A stretch of DNA of 59,558 nucleotides from Clostridia bacterium. GTDB lineage: Bacteria > Bacillota > Clostridia > Oscillospirales > Acutalibacteraceae. Positions within the stretch are counted from its first letter, which is position 1; the number at the start of each line of letters is the position of its first letter. The stretch spans positions 1-59,558 of the forward strand of contig JAFNVC010000013.1 of NCBI GenBank assembly GCA_017379935.1. The letters are read 5' to 3'. A model generated the notes under the pieces. The model was not told the origin of the DNA. It saw only the letters and a list, made by a program, of their open reading frames with translations, and made no database searches. Below are positions 2,737 to 14,077 of the stretch, one piece after another. The position numbers and the translations under genes are program-made.

Positions 2737-4143
2737 TTATTTGTTTTTAACGAGGACTACTGCCTGCTTTCCGAGAAGCTCCCATCGGTCCTCAAATTTA
2801 CTTTTATCAAAGGTAAGCACGCCGTTATCGTACGGGTCAACAGTTGTAACGGTTGTTGAAGAATAGCCCGACAGAATCATAACGTGAGTACCTCTCGGAT
2901 ATTCAAAATACTTGCCCGTGCTCTCAATATACCACGCGTTGACCTTAGTCGGATTCTGCATTTTATACGTTGCCCAGACGATTGCTGGTGAGCCGTCGCT
3001 GATGTAGCCGAGCAATTCATCAAAGGAGCAGCCGCTGATTCTGACCGCCGTATAACCGCCGCCGCGCTCGTCAATAGCCTTCTGCAAGGCCTTAGTTACA
3101 GCGGGTGAAAATACACCGTAGCCGGGGGTTGAGCTTGTATACGTATATCTCGGGTCACCGACGAACATTTCGTTGATATCGGGGCCGTAGGTCTTGCCGT
3201 TTTTCTTATAAAGATTCTTGCGCGGGATGATATTGACCATCTGGTCGATGTTAATCGAATAGCCGTAATACTTAAGAAGCATACAGCAGGACGCCGCCTC
3301 ACAGCCCGTAGGATATTTCGGAAGCTGGCTGACATAGGGAATATTCATCGCCGTTACGGTAACCTTACAGGTGACCGACTTCTTCGTGCCGTCAGTTGTC
3401 GTACCCGTTATTGTTGCCGTACCGATTTTTCTTCCCTGAATAACGCCGTCGGCATCAACCGTTGCGACGCTCTTGTCGGACGTTGTCCACGACATAGTCT
3501 TATTTATAACATCAGCAGGAGCAAAGGTCACCTTCTGTGCATATTTCGCGCCCTGTGTCAGAGTAATTGCTGTCTTATCCACCTTAACGGCGGTGATAAG
3601 CGGTGCGACGGTAAGATGGATTGATTTTTCAAGATTTGTGCCGTCCGTTGTTTTCGCCGTAAGCGTTACCTTACCCGCTTTTACAGCCGTCACAGTGCCG
3701 TTTTTATCAATATCCGCAATACTTTTATCGGATGAAATCCACTCGATTTCGGTATTATCCGCGATTCTCGGGTTAAATTCAACCGCTTCAAGAGTCAGCT
3801 TGCCGCCGACGGTAACAGCCGTATCGCCCGAATTAAGAGAAAAATCCTTAACCTTAATCTCAAGTCCGACGGATTTTTGCAGAATAAGAAGTGCATCTAC
3901 CGAATTGACGCTTCCGCTCATATCAAGATCGGCGCAGTATACGTTTTCCTCAGTTTTTTCAATAAGACCGACCGACATCTGCAGCATATAAAGCGCATCC
4001 AGCGAGTTGAGCTTTCCGCTGCCGTCAACATCACCGAAGAACGGCGCCGCCGAGGTAAAAATCACACTTCCCGAAAGAACCGAGAACACAGTGATGACCG
4101 ATAAAATAATACATAAGAATTTTTGGGAGATCTGCTTTTTCAT
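2737..4143 (-). CDS. secreted dockerin / Ig-like / C39-type cysteine peptidase
   Basis: Exported protein of 468 residues. A signal peptide covers about residues 1-32. Residues 36-97 form a type I dockerin with two calcium-loop repeats (DVDGSGKLNSLDAL and DLDMSGSVNSVDAL). Two bacterial Ig-like (BIG2) domains follow at about 100-180 and 183-264. A C-terminal C39-like papain-fold peptidase domain spans about 267-468. Its likely catalytic residues are visible: Gln273, Cys281 in TGCEAAS, His420 in GTHVMIL and Asp436 in DPYDNG. The dockerin implies attachment to a cohesin on a scaffold or the cell surface, and cohesin-like proteins occur elsewhere in this window. Substrate is unknown: it could cleave leader peptides, host proteins or cell-wall peptides. 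Confidence 0.85.
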   Translation of the reverse strand: MKKQISQKFLCIILSVITVFSVLSGSVIFTSAAPFFGDVDGSGKLNSLDALYMLQMSVGLIEKTEENVYCADLDMSGSVNSVDALLILQKSVGLEIKVKDFSLNSGDTAVTVGGKLTLEAVEFNPRIADNTEIEWISSDKSIADIDKNGTVTAVKAGKVTLTAKTTDGTNLEKSIHLTVAPLITAVKVDKTAITLTQGAKYAQKVTFAPADVINKTMSWTTSDKSVATVDADGVIQGRKIGTATITGTTTDGTKKSVTCKVTVTAMNIPYVSQLPKYPTGCEAASCCMLLKYYGYSINIDQMVNIIPRKNLYKKNGKTYGPDINEMFVGDPRYTYTSSTPGYGVFSPAVTKALQKAIDERGGGYTAVRISGCSFDELLGYISDGSPAIVWATYKMQNPTKVNAWYIESTGKYFEYPRGTHVMILSGYSSTTVTTVDPYDNGVLTFDKSKFEDRWELLGKQAVVLVKNK

Positions 4144-5249: not shown

Positions 5250-8200
5250 TTAATACTCTACAACGCCTTCGTAAACCTTGTATGTATCACCGTTGACGAG
5301 GATTGTTTCGTCTGTGTAAGTGATTACGAGGTCGCCGCCCGGCATCTTGACCGTGATGTCCTCGCCCTTCTTGCACATTCCGAGCTCTGTTGCAACAACA
5401 ACAGTTGCCGCTGCTGATGCGCCGCAGCTGAGGCTTTCGCCGTTGACCGCACGCTCATAGCATCTGAGCTTGATTGTGTTCTTATCAATAAGACGTGCAA
5501 CGCCTGTATTGATATATTCGGGAAGGATATCGGAGTTACGGATCATATCACCGAACTCATTGATATTCATCGAATCGATATCATCTCTGAATACGATACA
5601 ATGCGGGTTACCGACAGAAACACAGTTGAGAGTCATCTTCTCGCCTGCAATCTCTGCTTCATAGCCGATTGCATTTTCAGCATCAATGCTCATCGGGATG
5701 CTTGCGGGGTTGAAGTCGGGCTTGCCGATATCAACAGTTGCGGAACGGATCTCGCCGTTGAAGGTGTAAAGCTTAACCTTCATAACACCGCAGGGTGTCT
5801 CGATTGTCATATTCTTCTTCGGCACGATACCGTTATCGTAAAGATACTTTGCAGCGCAACGGATGCTGTTAGCAGCCATACGTGTCTGTGTTCCGTCGTT
5901 GTTGTAAACAACCATCTTTGCATCCGCAATCTCGGATCCTTCAAGAAGAACTACTCCGTCAGCACCGATACCGAAGTGACGGTCTGTGAAGTTTACTGTA
6001 AGTGACTCGGGAGACGGGATAACCTTACAGAAATTGTTGAAGTAGATGTCGTCGTTACCTGTTGCCTGCATCTTTGTAAACTTAAGCTGCATCTTCTCCT
6101 CGCGGAGGTTGTTGATATCAACAAGCTCTGTATTACGCTGTGTGAAGCGGCTTGCGAGAATATCGCAGAGTGCGTTTGCAGTATCGAGTGATGTAAGAGT
6201 ACAGATTGAAAGCTGAACAGCACGGCGGTGAATCTTGATAAAGTTCTGGATTGTTGACTGCTTTGTTGAGCCTGTATAAACGATGTAGTCAATCTTGCCT
6301 GTTTCAAGAACGTCAAGAATTGCGCTGCAATCGTTGAAGTCACCGATTGTCTCAACCTCGATGCCTGCCGCACGGAGGCCGACACCTGTCTTTGCTGTTG
6401 AGTAAATCTTAAGGCCGAGGTCAGCAAACTTTCTTGCGATGCCTACGATTTCGGGCTTGTCCTTATCGTGAACGCTGATGAGAACACCTGCATTGTATTT
6501 CTTATCGTGGTATGTGCTTTCAAGACCAACCTTGAAGCCTGCAGACACAAGACCCTTGAAGAGTGCCTCGTTAAGAGTTCTGCCGATACCGAGAACCTCA
6601 CCCGTTGACTTCATCTCAGGACCAAGCTCTGAGTTGATGTCGCTGAGCTTTTCAAATGAGAATACGGGAACCTTGATTGCGAAATACGGCGGAATCTTAT
6701 AAAGACCTACACCGTAGCCGAGCTCCTTGAGCGGAGTACCAACCATAACCTTTGTTGCAAGCTCAACCATCGGAACACCCGTAACCTTACTGATATAAGG
6801 AATTGTACGGGAAGCACGCGGATTAACCTCGATAACGTGAAGCTCATTCTGATAAATGAGGTACTGGATATTAACAAGACCCTTTGTGCCGAGTGCAAGA
6901 GCAAGATTCGTTGAGCATTCAACGATTCTGTCAAGCATCTTATCGGGGATATTGAACGGCGGATAAACTGCGATTGAGTCACCTGAGTGAACACCTGCAC
7001 GCTCGATATGCTCCATAACACCGGGGATAAGAACATCCTTACCGTCGGAGATAACGTCAACCTCAAGCTCTGTACCCATCATATACTTATCAACAAGCAC
7101 GGGGTTTTCAATCTTCTGAGCGAGGATGATATCCATATAGATACGGACATCTGTCTCGTTATATGCGATTGTCATATTCTGACCGCCGATAACGTATGAC
7201 GGACGGAGAAGAACGGGATATTCAAGCTCTTCAGCAGCCTTGAGAGCCTCGTCAACATTCATAACAGTCTGACCCTTGGGTCTTCTGATATTGAAGGACT
7301 CAAGAAGTGCATCGAAGCGCTCTCTGTCCTCTGCGATGTCGATACCCTCTGCTGATGTACCGAGAATCTTAATTCCGCTTTCATCAAGGAACTTTGTGAG
7401 CTTGATAGCTGTCTGACCGCCGAATGCAACAACGACGCCAACGGGATTTTCAACCTTGATGACGTTCATAACGTCCTCGTCGTTGAGAGGCTCGAAGTAA
7501 AGTCTGTCAGCAGTATCGAAGTCTGTTGAAACAGTTTCGGGGTTGTTGTTGATGATAACAACCTCGTAGCCGAGCTGCTTAAGAGTCCATACGCAGTGAA
7601 CTGATGAGTAGTCGAACTCGATACCCTGTCCGATACGGATGGGACCTGAGCCGAGAACGATGATAGTCTCCTTATCGCCGCGCTTGATTTCTCTTGATTC
7701 GCATTCTGTGTCATAGGTTGAGTAGAAATACGGGGTTTCAGCCTTGAACTCTGCACCGCAGGTGTCAACCATCTTGTATACTGCATCAAGTGTCTTTTCG
7801 GGAAGCTTGCCTGCATACTTGAGGATAGTTGCATCCTTGTAGCCGTATTTCTTACCCTTGATGTAGTAATCCTCATCGAGGTTACCGCTTTCAAGCATTT
7901 TTTCGTAATCTGCAAGGTTCTTGAGCTTTGCAAGGAACCACTCGTCAATCATTGTGATTTCGTGGATTTTCTCGATGCTTACGCCCTCTTTAAGAGCCTT
8001 GAAAACTGTGAAGAGTCTGATGTCGTCCTGATCGTGGAGCTTTTCGACAACATCCATATTCTCGGGGAATTTATTGTAATTGAGAGTGTCAAGACCGATT
8101 TCTGCACCGCGGACAGCCTTCATAATAGCCATCTCGAAGGACGGTGCGATAGCCATAACCTCACCCGTAGCCTTCATCTGAGTGCCAAGCTTACGGCTGG

Positions 8201-9302
8201 TTGAAACAAACTTGTCAAACGGCCACTTCGGGAACTTGACAACACAGTAGTCAACCGTCGGCTCGAAGCAGGCGCAGGTCTTGCCTGTGATATCGTTTCT
8301 GATTTCGTCAAGCGTATAGCCGAGAGCAATCTTTGAAGTAACCTTTGCAATCGGGAAGCCTGTTGCCTTTGAAGCGAGAGCGGATGAACGTGAAACTCGG
8401 GGATTAACCTCGATAACTGCATATTCAAAGCTTTCGGGGTCAAGCGCGAACTGACAGTTACAGCCGCCCTCGATACCAAGCTCTGTGATAATATCAAGAG
8501 ATGCTGAACGGAGCATCTGATATTCCTTGTCTGAAAGTGTCATTGCAGGAGCAACAACGATACTGTCACCCGTATGAACACCTACGGGGTCGATGTTTTC
8601 CATTGAACAGATTGCGATTGCATTACCTGCGCTGTCACGCATTACCTCGAACTCAATTTCCTTCCAGCCTGCGATGTACTTTTCAACAAGCACCTGAGTG
8701 ATGGGAGAAAGCATAAGTCCGTTATAAGTAATAACGCGGAGCTCTTTTTCGTTATAAGCAACACCGCCGCCTGCACCGCCGAGTGTGAATGCGGGACGGA
8801 GAATTACGGGATAGCCGATCTCCTCTGCAATCTCTGCAGCACGGTCAACTGTTGTTGCGATATCTGACGGGATACAGGGCTGACCGATCTTAAGCATCGT
8901 GTCGCGGAACATCTGTCTGTCCTCAGCCTTGTCGATAGCCTCAGCATTTGTACCGAGGAGCTTAACGCCCATCTTATCAAGATAGCCGTCCTTTGCAAGC
9001 TGCATAGCGATTGTAAGACCTGTCTGACCGCCGAGACCTGCAAGAATTGAGTCGGGACGCTCTTTTTCAATAATTCTCTTTACAGTTTCAACTGTGAGAG
9101 GCTCGAGGTAAATTTCGTTTGCAAGTGCGCTGTCGGTCATAATTGTTGCGGGGTTTGAGTTTACAAGAACAACGTCAAGACCTGCATCCTTAAGAACGCG
9201 GCAAGCCTGTGCGCCTGCGTAGTCAAACTCAGCAGCCTGACCGATAACGATAGGGCCGGAGCCGATTACAAGTACTTTTTTGATATCTTTATTAAGCGGC
9301 AT
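5250..9302 (-). CDS. carB: carbamoyl phosphate synthetase large subunit fused to a DapF-like domain
   Basis: Residues 1-1070 are a complete CarB. They hold the N-terminal carboxyphosphate ATP-grasp half (VIGSGPIVIGQAAEFD, IEVNPRVSRSSAL), the oligomerisation region, the carbamate-kinase ATP-grasp half (IEVNPRASRTIPY) and the MGS-like allosteric domain (about 930-1065). The enzyme makes carbamoyl phosphate from bicarbonate, ATP and ammonia. From Met1071 to the end (1350) the reading frame continues without interruption into a full-length diaminopimelate epimerase fold, described separately. Normal CarB proteins end near residue 1060-1080. The start overlaps the carA stop as ATGA. As the last gene of an argG-argH-argF-carA-carB operon, the CPS most likely serves arginine synthesis. 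The ATP-grasp halves look intact. Confidence 0.93.
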   Translation of the reverse strand: MPLNKDIKKVLVIGSGPIVIGQAAEFDYAGAQACRVLKDAGLDVVLVNSNPATIMTDSALANEIYLEPLTVETVKRIIEKERPDSILAGLGGQTGLTIAMQLAKDGYLDKMGVKLLGTNAEAIDKAEDRQMFRDTMLKIGQPCIPSDIATTVDRAAEIAEEIGYPVILRPAFTLGGAGGGVAYNEKELRVITYNGLMLSPITQVLVEKYIAGWKEIEFEVMRDSAGNAIAICSMENIDPVGVHTGDSIVVAPAMTLSDKEYQMLRSASLDIITELGIEGGCNCQFALDPESFEYAVIEVNPRVSRSSALASKATGFPIAKVTSKIALGYTLDEIRNDITGKTCACFEPTVDYCVVKFPKWPFDKFVSTSRKLGTQMKATGEVMAIAPSFEMAIMKAVRGAEIGLDTLNYNKFPENMDVVEKLHDQDDIRLFTVFKALKEGVSIEKIHEITMIDEWFLAKLKNLADYEKMLESGNLDEDYYIKGKKYGYKDATILKYAGKLPEKTLDAVYKMVDTCGAEFKAETPYFYSTYDTECESREIKRGDKETIIVLGSGPIRIGQGIEFDYSSVHCVWTLKQLGYEVVIINNNPETVSTDFDTADRLYFEPLNDEDVMNVIKVENPVGVVVAFGGQTAIKLTKFLDESGIKILGTSAEGIDIAEDRERFDALLESFNIRRPKGQTVMNVDEALKAAEELEYPVLLRPSYVIGGQNMTIAYNETDVRIYMDIILAQKIENPVLVDKYMMGTELEVDVISDGKDVLIPGVMEHIERAGVHSGDSIAVYPPFNIPDKMLDRIVECSTNLALALGTKGLVNIQYLIYQNELHVIEVNPRASRTIPYISKVTGVPMVELATKVMVGTPLKELGYGVGLYKIPPYFAIKVPVFSFEKLSDINSELGPEMKSTGEVLGIGRTLNEALFKGLVSAGFKVGLESTYHDKKYNAGVLISVHDKDKPEIVGIARKFADLGLKIYSTAKTGVGLRAAGIEVETIGDFNDCSAILDVLETGKIDYIVYTGSTKQSTIQNFIKIHRRAVQLSICTLTSLDTANALCDILASRFTQRNTELVDINNLREEKMQLKFTKMQATGNDDIYFNNFCKVIPSPESLTVNFTDRHFGIGADGVVLLEGSEIADAKMVVYNNDGTQTRMAANSIRCAAKYLYDNGIVPKKNMTIETPCGVMKVKLYTFNGEIRSATVDIGKPDFNPASIPMSIDAENAIGYEAEIAGEKMTLNCVSVGNPHCIVFRDDIDSMNINEFGDMIRNSDILPEYINTGVARLIDKNTIKLRCYERAVNGESLSCGASAAATVVVATELGMCKKGEDITVKMPGGDLVITYTDETILVNGDTYKVYEGVVEY
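5253..6092 (-). other. DapF-like domain within carB (residues 1071-1350), one catalytic Cys missing
   Basis: The segment aligns by eye with whole DapF: KMQATGNDD (substrate Asn), RHFGIGADGVVLLE, YNNDGTQ, GNPHCIVF, the ligand pair Glu1283-Arg1284 in CYERAV, and SCGASAAA. DapF uses two cysteines as acid/base. The second is present (Cys1293), but the first, expected in MCGNxxRC, is Ala1143 in MAANSIRC. The usual ERGxGET...CGTGA stretch carries a one-residue insertion and reads CGASA. Ligand contacts seem largely kept, so binding without epimerisation is plausible (inference). A GAGGAG sequence (6101-6096) lies 3 bases before the Met1071 codon, perhaps a relic of a separate gene or an internal translation start. 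Confidence 0.85.
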
Positions 9303-10366
9303 CAGTCATTACCTCCCATCATTGTGATAAAGTCGTCATAAACATAGTGTGTATTCAAGGGGCTGATACAAGCCTCGGGCTGGAACTGAGTTGTGATAAT
9401 CTTCTTATCCTCATAGCTCATACCCTCGCATGTACCGTCATTAGCATTGACGAAGCTCTGCTTTCCGCACGGTACGCTGTCAGCCTTGACCTCGTAGCCG
9501 TGGTTCTGGCTTGTGATATATGTTTTGCCGTTATCAAGGCTCTTAACCGGCTGGTTTGCACCGCGGTGACCGTACTGAAGCTTTACAGTCTCGCCGCCCA
9601 TTGCAAGTGCAACAAGCTGATGACCGAGGCAGATACCGAGCATCGAAGCCTTGCCGATAAGCTTTTTGATTTCTTCAACAGCCGCCATATTCTCCTTCGG
9701 GTCAGCAGGACCGTTGGAAAGAACAATGCCGTCTGCACCGAGTGCGAGGATATCCTCAGCAGATGTGTCTGCCGGAACAACAGTTACATCACAGCCGCGC
9801 TTGGTAAGCTCTGCGATAATGCTCTTTGTCTTACCGAAGTCAACGAGAGCAACACTCTTCTTTGCGTTTTCAGCCTTGACGGTGTAAGCCTCCTTTGTGC
9901 TTACAGCCTCGACTGCACCTGTGATTTTATATGCCTTGATTTCGTCAAAATCAACGTTTGACGGATCATCTGTAATTTTTGCATTCATAACACCGTTATC
10001 GCGGATAACTCTTGTGATTTCACGGGTATCAACACCGCATACACCGACGATACCCTGCTTTTTGAGGAACTCGTCGAGGTTGTACTGGCAACGGAAGTTT
10101 GAGGGAGCGTCGCACCACTCGCGGACAACGTAAGCCTTGAGATGTGACTTATCGCACTCGAAGTCCTCCTCCATAATGCCGTAGTTACCGATAAGCGGGA
10201 AGGTGTGCATTACAATCTGACCGTAATAAGTCGGGTCTGTGAGAGTTTCAACATAAGCGCCCATACCTGTTGTGAATACGAACTCGCCGATTACCTCACC
10301 CTCTGCGCCGAATCTTTCACCCTCGAAAACGTGACCGTCCTCGAGAACAATGTAAACTTTCTTCAT
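9302..10366 (-). CDS. carA: carbamoyl phosphate synthetase small (glutaminase) subunit with His-to-Gln change
   Basis: The 354-residue CarA has the N-terminal small-subunit domain (about 1-140) and a class I glutamine amidotransferase domain (about 170-350). It should hydrolyse glutamine and pass ammonia to CarB. The nucleophile is present (Cys246 in GICLGHQ), as are GHRGANQPVK and SQNHG. However, the catalytic dyad motif, normally HPEAxPGP, reads FQPEACISP: Gln329 replaces the histidine while Glu331 remains. In E. coli CarA, changing this histidine abolishes glutamine-dependent synthesis but leaves the ammonia-dependent reaction. The complex may therefore depend on free ammonia. The start follows an AGGGAGGT-like site, and the stop overlaps carB by ATGA. 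Confidence 0.93.
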   Translation of the reverse strand: MKKVYIVLEDGHVFEGERFGAEGEVIGEFVFTTGMGAYVETLTDPTYYGQIVMHTFPLIGNYGIMEEDFECDKSHLKAYVVREWCDAPSNFRCQYNLDEFLKKQGIVGVCGVDTREITRVIRDNGVMNAKITDDPSNVDFDEIKAYKITGAVEAVSTKEAYTVKAENAKKSVALVDFGKTKSIIAELTKRGCDVTVVPADTSAEDILALGADGIVLSNGPADPKENMAAVEEIKKLIGKASMLGICLGHQLVALAMGGETVKLQYGHRGANQPVKSLDNGKTYITSQNHGYEVKADSVPCGKQSFVNANDGTCEGMSYEDKKIITTQFQPEACISPLNTHYVYDDFITMMGGND

Positions 10367-10379
10367 CCGTAGACCTCCC

Positions 10380-11363
10380 TTAAAGTGTTGCTGCCATAAC
10401 GGCCTTTATTGTGTGCATCCTGTTTTCTGCTTCTTCGAAAACGATGGATTTTTCACTTTCAAATACTTCGTCGGTTACTTCCATTGCTTCTCTGCCGAAC
10501 TTCTCGCCCATTTCCTTACCGACAGCCGTTTTGTGGTCGTGGTAAGCAGGTAAGCAGTGCATAAAGACAACATTTTCAGCTGCTGCATCCATAAGAGCCT
10601 TATTGACCTGATACGGTGCAAGATCGTCGATTCTCTCCTGCCATACCTCAATCGGCTCACCCATAGAAACCCAGACGTCCGTGTAGATGACGTTCGCGTC
10701 CTTTACAGCCTCGAACGGATCCTCGCAGAAGCGGATAACCGAGCCTGTTTGACTTGCAATCTCGAGACATTCGTCAACGAGTGCCTGATCGGGGAAATAC
10801 TTTTTCGGTGCGGCAGCGGTGAAGTTGAGTCCCATCTTCGCACAGCCGACCATAAGTGAATTACCCATATTGTAGCGGGCATCGCCCATATAAACAAAAT
10901 TTATACCCTTAAGGTAACCGAAATGCTCCTTGATTGTAAGGAAATCGGCTAAAATCTGAGTCGGGTGGAATTCGTTGGTAAGTCCGTTCCACACGGGAAC
11001 CTTTGAATACTTTGCGAGCTCCTCAACAACAGCCTGTCCGAAGCCTCTGTATTCAATACCGTCGTACATTCCTGCAAGAACTCTTGCCGTATCGGCGATG
11101 CTTTCCTTCTTGCCGATCTGTGAGCCCTCGGCAAGGTACGTTGAGCCCATTCCGAGGTCACTTGCAGCTACTTCAAAGCTGCAGCGTGTTCTTGTGCTTG
11201 TCTTTTCAAAGATGAGGGCGATATTCTTGCCCTCGTGGATTCTGTGAGGGATGCCTGCCTTTTTCTTTGCCTTGAGATCGGCGGCAAGATCAATGAGATA
11301 TCCGATTTCTTCGCTTGTAAAATCAAGCAATTTAAGGAAATCTCTGCCCTTTAAGTCTGCCAT
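10380..11363 (-). CDS. argF: ornithine carbamoyltransferase
   Basis: Condenses carbamoyl phosphate with ornithine to give citrulline. The start is placed at ATG 11363, preceded by AGGAGGAC, which gives 327 residues beginning [15 protein letters not shown]; a longer frame to 11405 has no family homology. Carbamoyl-phosphate binding motif STRTR and the C-terminal MHCLPAYHD ornithine-side motif are both present. It lies 13 bases upstream of carA in the arginine operon, so its substrate would be supplied by the adjacent CPS. It could be called argF or arcB by sequence alone; the operon context argues for the anabolic role. Confidence 0.93.
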
Positions 11364-11418
11364 AAAAGTCCTCCTATATTCCAAAAAACAGGGCGGATAA
11401 AACAATCCGCCCCTTATA

Positions 11419-12792
11419 TCAGTCGATAAAAGTGCTTACATATTCAATCTGCTTCTCAACAGAGTCAATACCTGTACCACCTGCAGAAATTCTTTTAGCA
11501 ACGCAGGTTTCAAGAGATATTTCCTTGTAGAGGTCTTCGCAGAAAAGGTCACTGTATTTATTATAATCCTCAAGTGACATAGTTTCAAGCACTAAATTGT
11601 TATTTATACAAAATGCGACAATCTGACCAACGATTTTGTATGCGCTTCTGAAGGGCATACCCTTCTTTGTGAGATAGTCAGCAAGGTCAGTTGCGTTGAT
11701 GAAGCCCTTCTGTGCCGCTGAATACATATTATCCGTAAGCACTGTCATAGTTTCAATCATCGGTGCAAACACACGAAGACACTGCTTCAATGTGTCAATG
11801 CTGTCAAAGATGCATTCCTTATCTTCCTGCATATCCTTGTTGTATGCAAGAGGAATACCCTTGAGCACAGTCAGCATTGTGAAAAGATTGCCGTAAACGC
11901 GTCCCGTCTTACCGCGGACAAGCTCTGCCATATCGGGATTCTTCTTCTGCGGCATAATGCTTGAACCTGTCGTATAGCTGTCGCTGAGCTCAACAAACTT
12001 GAACTCCCAGCTTGACCAGAGGATGATCTCCTCCGAGAAACGGGAAAGGTGCATCATAATCGTTGAATAAGCGCTCATAAGCTCAACGCAGAAGTCACGG
12101 TCGGAAACGCCGTCGATGCTGTTGAGAGTAATGCCGTCAAAGCCGAGCTCCCTTGCAACGAATTCACGGTCTGTATTATATGTCGTGCCCGAAAGCGCGC
12201 ACGAGCCGAGCGGAGAATAGTTCATTCTCTTAAGAGCATCCTCAAGTCTGCCGATATCACGAGTGAACATCATCGCATAAGCTAAAAGATGATGAGCAAA
12301 GGTTATCGGCTGTGCTCTCTGAAGATGAGTGTAGCCCGGTAAAATGGAGGTCTTGTGGGCCTTTGCCTGCACGAGGATAGCTGCAAGGAGCTGTCTGATA
12401 AGAGCGATGATTTCGTTTGTTTCGTCACGAAGGAAAAGACGGATATCAACAGCAACCTGATCGTTACGGCTTCTTGCTGTATGAAGTCTCTTGCCGACGT
12501 CGCCGATACGCTTTGTAAGCTCGGACTCGACGAACATATGAATATCCTCTGCATCCATATCAAAAGCAAGGTTACCGCTGTTAAGGTCATCAAGAATAGA
12601 CTGAAGACCTGCGGTTATCTTATCACAGTCATCATCGCTGATAATGCCCTGCAAAGCAAGCATTGCCGCGTGCTTCATTGAGCCTGTGATATCCTGCTTA
12701 TACATTTTGCAGTCAAAATGAATGGAAGAGTTAAAGTCATCGGCAATTTTATCAAGCGCCTGTTCAAATCTTCCTGCCCACATTTTTTCCAT
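11419..12792 (-). CDS. argH: argininosuccinate lyase
   Basis: Last step of arginine synthesis: cleaves argininosuccinate into arginine and fumarate. The 457-residue protein is a fumarase/aspartase superfamily member with the signature [11 protein letters not shown], the N-terminal MWAGRFEQ motif and the [10 protein letters not shown] motif. It acts as a cytoplasmic homotetramer in the family. It lies 20 bases after argG and about 55 bases before argF in one leftward operon. No unusual residues seen. Confidence 0.95.
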
Positions 12793-12812: not shown

Positions 12813-14042
12813 TTATTTGAGATTGTTCTTAGCCTTCATCTTAGCGTAAACCTTGATGGGAAGACCGTAGAGGTTGATGAATCCTGCTGAGTCAGCCTGA
12901 TTATAAACGTTGTCCTCATCGAATGTTGCGATCTCGGGATCGTAGAGTGAGAACGGTGATGTAACGCCAGCGTTGATCATATTACCCTTGTAGAGCTTGA
13001 GCTTAACGTCACCTGTAACAGTCTTCTGTGTCTCCTTAACGAAAGCAAGGATAGCATCTGTAAGCGGTGTGTACCACTGTGCGTTATATGTAAGCTCAGC
13101 AAGCTTCTGAGCAACGAGTGTCTTGTAGTGTGCTGTTTCCTTATCGAGAGTGATTGACTCGAGAACCTCGTGAGCCTTGTAGAGGATTGCACCGCCCGGA
13201 GTCTCATAAACGCCGCGGCATTTCATACCGACGAGTCTGTTCTCAACGATATCAAGAAGACCGATACCGTTTGCACCGCCGAGCTCATTGAGCTTTTCTA
13301 CAAGTGCAACAGCGTCCATCTCTGTGCCGTCGATAGCTGCGGGAACGCCCTTCTCGAAGTGGATTGTAACATAAGTCGGAACGTCGGGAGCCATTTCGGG
13401 AGAAACGCCCATCTCAAGGAAGCCTTCCTTGTTGTAGAGCGGCTCGTTTGCAGGATCCTCAAGATCAAGACCCTCGTGTGAAAGGTGCCAGATGTTCTTA
13501 TCCTTTGAGTAGTTTGTCTCACGGTTAATCTTAAGAGGAACGTTATGAGCCTCAGCGTATTCGATTTCTTCCTCACGTGACTTGATGTCCCACTCTCTCC
13601 ACGGAGCGATGATGGGCATATCGGGTGCGAAAGCCTTGATAGCAAGCTCGAATCTTACCTGGTCATTACCCTTACCTGTGCAGCCGTGGCAGATAGCGTC
13701 TGCGCCCTCTGCGATAGCGATTTCAGCAATTCTCTTTGCAATCGGAGGACGGGCATAAGCTGTACCGAGGAGATAGTCCTCATACTTTGCGCCTGCCTGG
13801 ATGCCGGGGAAAACGTAATCCTCAAGGAATTCCTTTGTAAGGTCTTCGATGTAAATCTTAGAAGCGCCTGTCTTGATAGCCTTCTCCTCAAGGCCCTCAA
13901 GCTCGCTTGCCTGACCGACGTTACCTGAAACTGCGATAACCTCACAGTTGTTGTAGTTCTCCTTAAGCCAGGGGATGATGATTGATGTGTCAAGACCGCC
14001 CGAGTAAGCGAGAACAACCTTCTTTATGTTTTCTTTATTCAT
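12813..14042 (-). CDS. argG: argininosuccinate synthase
   Basis: Joins citrulline and aspartate using ATP. The N-terminal PP-loop AYSGGLDTS and the substrate-region motif [13 protein letters not shown] are present. The start is placed at ATG 14042, preceded by GGAGG, giving 409 residues; the frame's earlier ATG at 14063 has no family sequence. It is the first gene of the arginine operon, directly downstream of a promoter overlapped by a candidate ArgR operator. Confidence 0.95.
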
Positions 14043-14077
14043 AATAAAACCTCCAATATGCATTTCTGCTTCACTTT

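Follow-up and report, generated by a model that had tools for sequence, protein, structure and literature searches.

A carbamoyl phosphate synthetase large subunit fused to a diaminopimelate epimerase-like domain without the first catalytic cysteine: a possible ligand-sensing domain in an arginine operon of Clostridia

The stretch of DNA analyzed here (the window, 59,558 nucleotides) is contig JAFNVC010000013.1 of the Clostridia bacterium assembly GCA_017379935.1 (Oscillospirales, Acutalibacteraceae). It includes a gene, carB::dapF, in which the large subunit of carbamoyl phosphate synthetase (CPS) is followed in the same reading frame by a domain with the fold of diaminopimelate (DAP) epimerase. 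The frame starts with ATG, has no internal stops and encodes 1350 amino acids. NCBIfam searches matched residues 1-1052 to the CarB model NF003671 (1438 bits), residues 4-1047 to TIGR01369 (1403 bits against a cut-off of 1027), and residues 1074-1348 to the DapF model TIGR00652, the latter being a full-length match (217.5 bits against a curated cut-off of 114.65). Pfam agreed with NCBIfam and showed that the CarB part is complete, with domains D1, D2 and D3 (the two synthetase halves and the oligomerization domain) and an MGS-like allosteric domain. The junction is short, as NTELVDINNLREEK directly continues into MQLKFTKM, and the methionine found there may be the former DapF start. The features of the gene are:

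5250..9302, (-): carB::dapF fusion gene, 1350 amino acids (intact frame and profile matches)
6147..9302, (-): CarB part, residues 1-1052 (NF003671, TIGR01369)
6192..6452, (-): MGS-like allosteric domain of CarB, residues 951-1037 (Pfam PF02142), without a T-S-x-K-G-R-type motif
6084..6146, (-): junction, residues 1053-1073, leading into NNLREEKMQLKF (sequence)
5874..5876, (-): codon of Ala1143, at the site of the first catalytic cysteine (Cys73 in Haemophilus influenzae, Cys83 in Corynebacterium glutamicum numbering)
5424..5426, (-): codon of Cys1293, the second catalytic cysteine, retained
5259..6083, (-): DapF-like domain, residues 1074-1348 (TIGR00652)

Residue numbers below are, unless stated otherwise, those of H. 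influenzae DapF, the positions having been assigned by motif. Residue 73 of the fused domain is alanine (Ala1143) and residue 217 is cysteine (Cys1293), so that one of the two catalytic cysteines is present. The residues N11, N64, N75, N157, H159, N190, E208 and R209 are found in the protein; from the DAP-contact set N11, N64, N75, N157, N190, E208, R209 and T219 the first seven are therefore present, and T219 is alanine. In the sequence MAANSIRC the glycine that follows the first cysteine (G74) is also alanine, in addition to the change of Cys73. A first-pass annotation of this DNA had described a complete CarB and a whole DapF fold in one frame, with GND, NNDG (here YNNDG), GNPH, the Glu-Arg pair and Cys1293 retained, alanine at 1143 and CGASA in place of CGTGA, and all of these features were borne out by the intact frame, the profile matches and the sequence. 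The domain resembles DapF in its whole fold, in most DAP-contact residues and in the second cysteine, and differs from it in the replacement of the first cysteine, Gly74 and Thr219 by alanine and in its location behind CarB. A profile of the domain matched 17 solved sequences, all of them DapF except one O-ureido-serine racemase. The CarB part is alike, over its full length, to the large subunit of glutamine-type CPS, from which it differs by the extra 280-residue C-terminal domain and by the absence of the MGS motif mentioned above. Epimerase activity has presumably been lost, as deduced from the absence of Cys73.

Profile searches combined with frame lengths found an in-frame DapF domain behind CarB in 14 of the 18 genomes of the genus (in G161 and G154 a contig edge cuts the frame short, and in G158 the CarB frame is broken upstream), and no stop was present at the carB-dapF junction in any of these 14 fusions. 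The same searches found the fusion in 47 of the 150 genomes of a family sample, a count that omits G034 (frameshifted) and G113 (contig edge). For the order they gave at least 99 of 245 genomes, from 20 families by group codes, with two more cut by contig edges; the figure of 99, counted from the matches listed, is a lower bound. Among the 80 best named loci 76 were fused, 54 of these being without Cys73 and 74 retaining Cys217. Among the named carriers are Oscillibacter valericigenes An860 and O. ruminantium GH1, both with alanine, and Ruminococcus sp. FC2018, with cysteine; the record titles were mostly Oscillospiraceae, Ruminococcaceae or unplaced Clostridia, with a few other groups. CarB proteins longer than 1300 amino acids with the first cysteine replaced, which the first-pass annotation had proposed looking for, are present in many genera. 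It had also considered that relatives might have separate carB and dapF genes with a stop at the junction; the adjacent separate genes that were found belong to a second locus. They occur in G155 and G156 (L032, L033, L115), where a standalone dapF begins about 50 bases after an unfused carB, in a different frame, and the fused gene is located elsewhere.

Since the source assembly is fragmented and 84.8% complete, an assembly or sequencing artefact could have joined carB and dapF, but the same junction in at least 99 of the 245 order genomes and in named records makes this explanation hardly credible. It was rejected because the fusion recurs in genus, order and named records, and the order count likewise led to the rejection of a one-off event in this genus. 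The earlier statement that no CarB-DapF fusion was known agrees with our literature search, which found no description of one in open-licence papers, judged by titles and abstract starts. The available text of an article on oomycete domain fusions, which mentions fusion, CPS and diaminopimelate, describes different ones (PMC2705460).

The fused domains are of two types. Of the 59 read from the family and genus, Cys73 is present in 24; in the other 35 its place is taken by Ala (27), Gly (6), Ser (1) or Tyr (1). Cys217 is retained in 58 of the 59, and both catalytic cysteines are present in all 30 standalone DapFs read. The Cys73-bearing fusions of the same order have the same domain order and junction as the gene described here, but keep both cysteines. 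In the genus, MAxNSIRC is found in 12 of the 14 fusions, and G063 and G165 have cysteine and glycine, respectively, at the Cys73 site. In a careful tree, from which the fragment L106 was omitted, a single clade (support 100/99) unites 29 of the 34 Cys73-less rows and includes 16 genera by group codes; the group requires five changes, four of which are forced by starred branches. In a wider, quick tree with 40 additional loci from other families, 39 of the 52 Cys73-less rows fall in one clade (98). Read most naturally, these trees indicate losses of Cys73 in several lineages, one of which spread widely, and the Cys73-bearing fusions are apparently the parent form of this gene's type. Fusions with neither catalytic cysteine include L139 (Ser73/Ala217), L155 (Ala73/Ser217) and the one of G688 (L276, Gly73/Ser217).

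The two types also differ in their gene neighborhoods, which were compared at 80 loci, 28 Cys73-bearing and 52 Cys73-less. The first 40 are G165 and 39 of the 47 fusions of the family; the fusion studied here and seven others, whose contigs are short or cut, were omitted. A second set of 40 was taken down the ranking of 94 listed matches outside the family, odd frame lengths being mostly skipped. The contexts came from a crude open reading frame caller and the neighbor counts are therefore lower bounds. Around the 28 Cys73-bearing loci dapL was nearby in 15, pyrG in 14, any arg gene in two and argF in none, while the 52 Cys73-less loci had argF in 30, any arg gene in 34, and dapL and pyrG in one each. 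A glutamine synthetase, glutamate synthase or ANTAR gene was near 18 of 28 Cys73-bearing and six of 52 Cys73-less loci. The clearest Cys73-less rows read, for example, argC-argJ-argB-argD-argF-carA-carB::dapF. Around the Cys73-bearing fusions in L198-L237 the genes for glutamate synthase and glutamine synthetase, an ANTAR gene, carA, carB::dapF, pyrG and dapL occur in more or less complete sets, which appear to form a cluster under nitrogen control with DAP synthesis as one of its parts. The Cys73-bearing fusions are probably working bifunctional enzymes that still epimerize, and we infer that in this nitrogen-assimilation and DAP cluster an active DapF receives the LL-DAP produced by DapL.

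The local gene order, argG-argH-argF-carA-carB::dapF, is of the arginine kind. Upstream of the fusion gene lie:

9302..10366, (-): carA (NF009475, 437 bits), its end overlapping the carB start by one base
10380..11405, (-): argF, ornithine carbamoyltransferase (TIGR00658, 418 bits), a TTG-started frame with an ATG 14 codons in
11419..12792, (-): argH, argininosuccinate lyase (TIGR00838, 635 bits)
12813..14063, (-): argG, argininosuccinate synthase (NF001770, 573 bits)

The CarB part also distinguishes the two types. In the MGS domain, the T-S-x-K-G-R-type motif, which from work on E. coli CPS may be part of the nucleotide site, is present in 37 of 40 Cys73-bearing and 11 of 74 readable Cys73-less copies. 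The fused gene is the one full CarB of the source assembly. Twelve Cys73-less genomes of 95-99% completeness (G003, G008, G040, G043, G044, G047, G081, G095, G132, G133, G138 and G145) show fused CarB only, at E values of 1e-100 or better; in these the fused CarB therefore probably also feeds pyrimidine synthesis, and for this reason we do not call it arginine-specific. A second, unfused CarB is found in other Cys73-less genomes, e.g., G001, G021, G071 and G080.

The adjoining CarA retains the glutaminase cysteine and has glutamine (FQPEA) in place of the catalytic histidine, whose position is placed by the FHPEA motif. In the E. coli enzyme both residues are described as essential (PMC6245113). 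The same change of histidine to glutamine is found in L101 and L105, and among the CarA proteins of 75 related loci, those of the 80 compared for gene neighborhood that gave a CarA match, 56 have both residues, 13 have neither (mostly with cysteine changed to glycine), three are without the cysteine only, two without the histidine only, and one was unreadable. Ammonia-dependent CPS has probably evolved repeatedly in gut bacteria, as far as these replacements indicate. Elsewhere in the window, nucleotides 2737-4143 (-) encode a protein with a dockerin-like start, immunoglobulin-like repeats and a C39-peptidase-like end, as judged by eye from the translation; an NCBIfam search at E 1e-10 gave no match for it.

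The source genome includes dapB and ddh, which adjoin each other, and ddh is found in 17 of the 18 genomes of the genus. Ddh forms meso-DAP directly, bypassing the epimerase, and so offers an apparent alternative route in the source genome. A check for a second, intact dapF, proposed in the first-pass annotation, found none in the assembly at its 84.8% completeness, and ddh instead. In the family and genus a match to Ddh or to a separate DapF was found in 33 of 35 Cys73-less and 12 of 24 Cys73-bearing genomes, and in other families in 32 of 33 and five of seven, respectively. The combined tally is 65 of 68 versus 17 of 31 (Fisher 2.5e-6, the genomes being related and not independent), or 63 of 68 versus 18 of 31 (Fisher 9.5e-5) with the borderline matches reversed. 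This tally excludes weak Ddh-like matches of 46-53 bits (among fusion genomes G032, G044, G053 and G095), includes a contig-edge Ddh fragment of G138 and a standalone DapF with one in-frame TAG of G688, and counts the standalone DapFs of other families irrespective of their cysteines.

The ligand pocket is conserved among the Cys73-less copies. In a sample of 75 such domains, less than 90% identical to one another, N75, H159 and N190 are retained in all, N64, E208 and R209 in 74 each, N157 in 73, G74 in 72, and T219 in 68 (6 Ser, 1 Ala). As 49 of these rows were found via two peptide patterns that contain N64 and N157, they lean to pocket conservation; the 26 copies found with hidden Markov models (HMMs) have N64 in 25, N75 in 26, N157 in 24, N190 in 26, and E208 and R209 in 25 each. 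By loose motif patterns the pocket is retained in 32-33 of the 33 Cys73-less copies of other families, and in all it is kept in such copies of 12 families by group code (the own family and 11 more). In our analysis N64, N75, N157, N190, E208 and R209 map onto residues that contact D,L-DAP in C. glutamicum DapF and whose mutation is reported to nearly abolish activity (PMC5296763). The ratio of nonsynonymous to synonymous substitution rates (dN/dS) in the own clade is 0.026-0.061 for the DapF domain in 15 pairs, and 0.017-0.039 for CarB. Cys73 is replaced in the 75 copies by Ala (54), Gly (16), Ser (3), Tyr (1) and Phe (1); Ala, Gly and Ser are small and leave the pocket open. A single-base change of a cysteine codon cannot give alanine, yet alanine is the commonest replacement, so a small residue seems favored at this position, the rows being related. 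The alignments and substitution rates show that across the clade the ligand pocket was maintained under purifying selection while Cys73 was lost, and on this evidence the Cys73-less domain is not neutral debris.

We propose, with a probability of about 0.5, that in an arginine-operon CPS the epimerase domain has become a regulatory domain that binds a ligand and most likely senses DAP. A sensor that binds a DAP-like or another amino acid and tunes CPS had been suggested in the first-pass annotation, and this part of it stands as the best-supported reading, with two of the checks proposed there speaking for it; the Cys73-bearing type and the arginine-gene context of the Cys73-less type were missing from it. 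More tentative is the complete course of events, in which a bifunctional CarB-DapF of the nitrogen and DAP cluster would have entered an arginine operon, lost Cys73 and the MGS motif, and become a DAP-controlled CPS. The domain would descend from the active epimerase of a bifunctional CarB-DapF, as trees and operons suggest; in the arginine branch Cys73 would have become Ala or Gly, and gene content shows that most genomes there can obtain meso-DAP from Ddh or from a DapF encoded separately. The domain would still bind DAP or a close diamino-dicarboxylate, this binding would close its two lobes as in active DapF, and the movement, directly behind the CarB allosteric domain, would alter CPS activity so as to balance carbamoyl phosphate for arginine against the DAP/lysine supply. 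The arginine and DAP/lysine routes both draw on aspartate. This regulatory role is favored by precedents: the DapF lobes close around DAP on binding (PMC5296763, PMC12039745), allosteric ligands of E. coli CPS bind to its C-terminal domain (PMC6245113), and an E. coli DapF carrying the C73A and C217A changes remains able to bind RppH and stimulate it (PMC4227774), so that an inactive DapF can regulate another enzyme. The RppH case is one of regulation by contact and differs in that DapF is a separate protein acting on an RNA enzyme, with no DAP dependence reported in the available text (PMC4227774). In human CPS1, an amino acid-type ligand, N-acetylglutamate, controls CPS through a switch at the C-terminal domain that needs the last residues of the C-terminal tail; there the enzyme's own L4 domain binds the ligand and no DapF domain is present (PMC4655335).

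Several observations weigh against this proposal. A pure sensor would not need Cys217, which is retained in 72 of the 75 Cys73-less copies, and N11 is found in 54 of them, with Asp in 20. The pocket columns have a mean conservation of 0.957 and the remaining invariant columns one of 0.915, which is not a significant difference (p 0.12), and therefore a constraint on fold or dimer could explain part of the conservation; dN/dS is mostly greater in the DapF part than in CarB. The associations rest mostly on one clade, the wider tree has seven changes of Cys73 state of which starred branches force just one, and a test with independent pairs of Cys73 loss against argF/dapL context had one usable (starred) pair. 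In the genomes G047, G154 and G634, no match to Ddh or to a further DapF was found. The own clade is more altered than most, since G74 and T219 are both alanine, and T223A, at the C. glutamicum site that matches T219, is reported to nearly abolish activity (PMC5296763). The DapF score is 222 bits here and 209-226 in the Cys73-less kin of the genus except G165, compared with 246-308 for the other intact fusions among the matches listed, except G133 (225). As a consequence of these alterations the ligand in the own genus may differ from that in the clade at large. The ligand of the Cys73-less domain in general could also be an amino acid of the arginine pathway instead of DAP.

The retention of Cys217 is the best argument for an enzyme in which this cysteine alone takes the alpha-proton in another reaction, such as an elimination, on a DAP-like or arginine-pathway amino acid; the Glu, Arg and Asn of the pocket are retained as well. 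Trans-3-hydroxyproline dehydratases, which have the same fold, work with one cysteine, and HF elimination from fluoro-DAP is possible by single-cysteine DapF mutants. However, the change to alanine removes one of two acid-base groups and brings no new one, none of the genes identified next to Cys73-less fusions would require a reaction of this sort, and Cys217 is also missing in L139, L155, G133 and G688; we consider an enzyme of this kind unlikely. A role of the fold in dimerization or stability of the CPS complex, with the ligand being irrelevant, would agree with active DapF being described as a dimer (PMC4227774) and with the conservation of non-pocket invariant columns almost to the level of the pocket. 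A scaffold does not require N64, N157, N190, E208 and R209 at 97-100%, though, and CarB without a DapF domain exists in the same genus and family, which leaves a purely structural role doubtful.

The domain could also be a former epimerase on its way out, retained merely because it is translated behind CarB. Such decay is real in G133, where the pocket is lost, and perhaps in G034, whose other dapF is also broken, so that its frameshifts may be sequencing errors; the more altered state of the own clade points the same way. The dN/dS of 0.03-0.06 in that clade and the retention of the pocket in 12 families make it improbable as a general explanation, and for the own clade simple decay is disfavored by the low dN/dS. 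Continued DAP epimerization, weak or with a rebuilt second base, could account for G047, which is 99% complete and has dapB, no Ddh and no Cys73-bearing DapF match. Another source of meso-DAP is nevertheless indicated in 65 of the 68 genomes with a Cys73-less fusion. An E. coli DapF in which alanine takes the place of both cysteines does not epimerize according to the available text, in which the single C73A is not covered (PMC4227774); this explanation is accordingly very improbable.

If the DapF-like domain is a regulatory domain of CPS that senses DAP, it would provide a direct molecular link between arginine and pyrimidine supply and cell-wall and lysine supply in widespread gut and rumen bacteria. 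The fusions would also represent a natural series from enzyme to sensor, from the active fusion through the apparent loss of Cys73 on several occasions to the one branch that spread with a changed operon.

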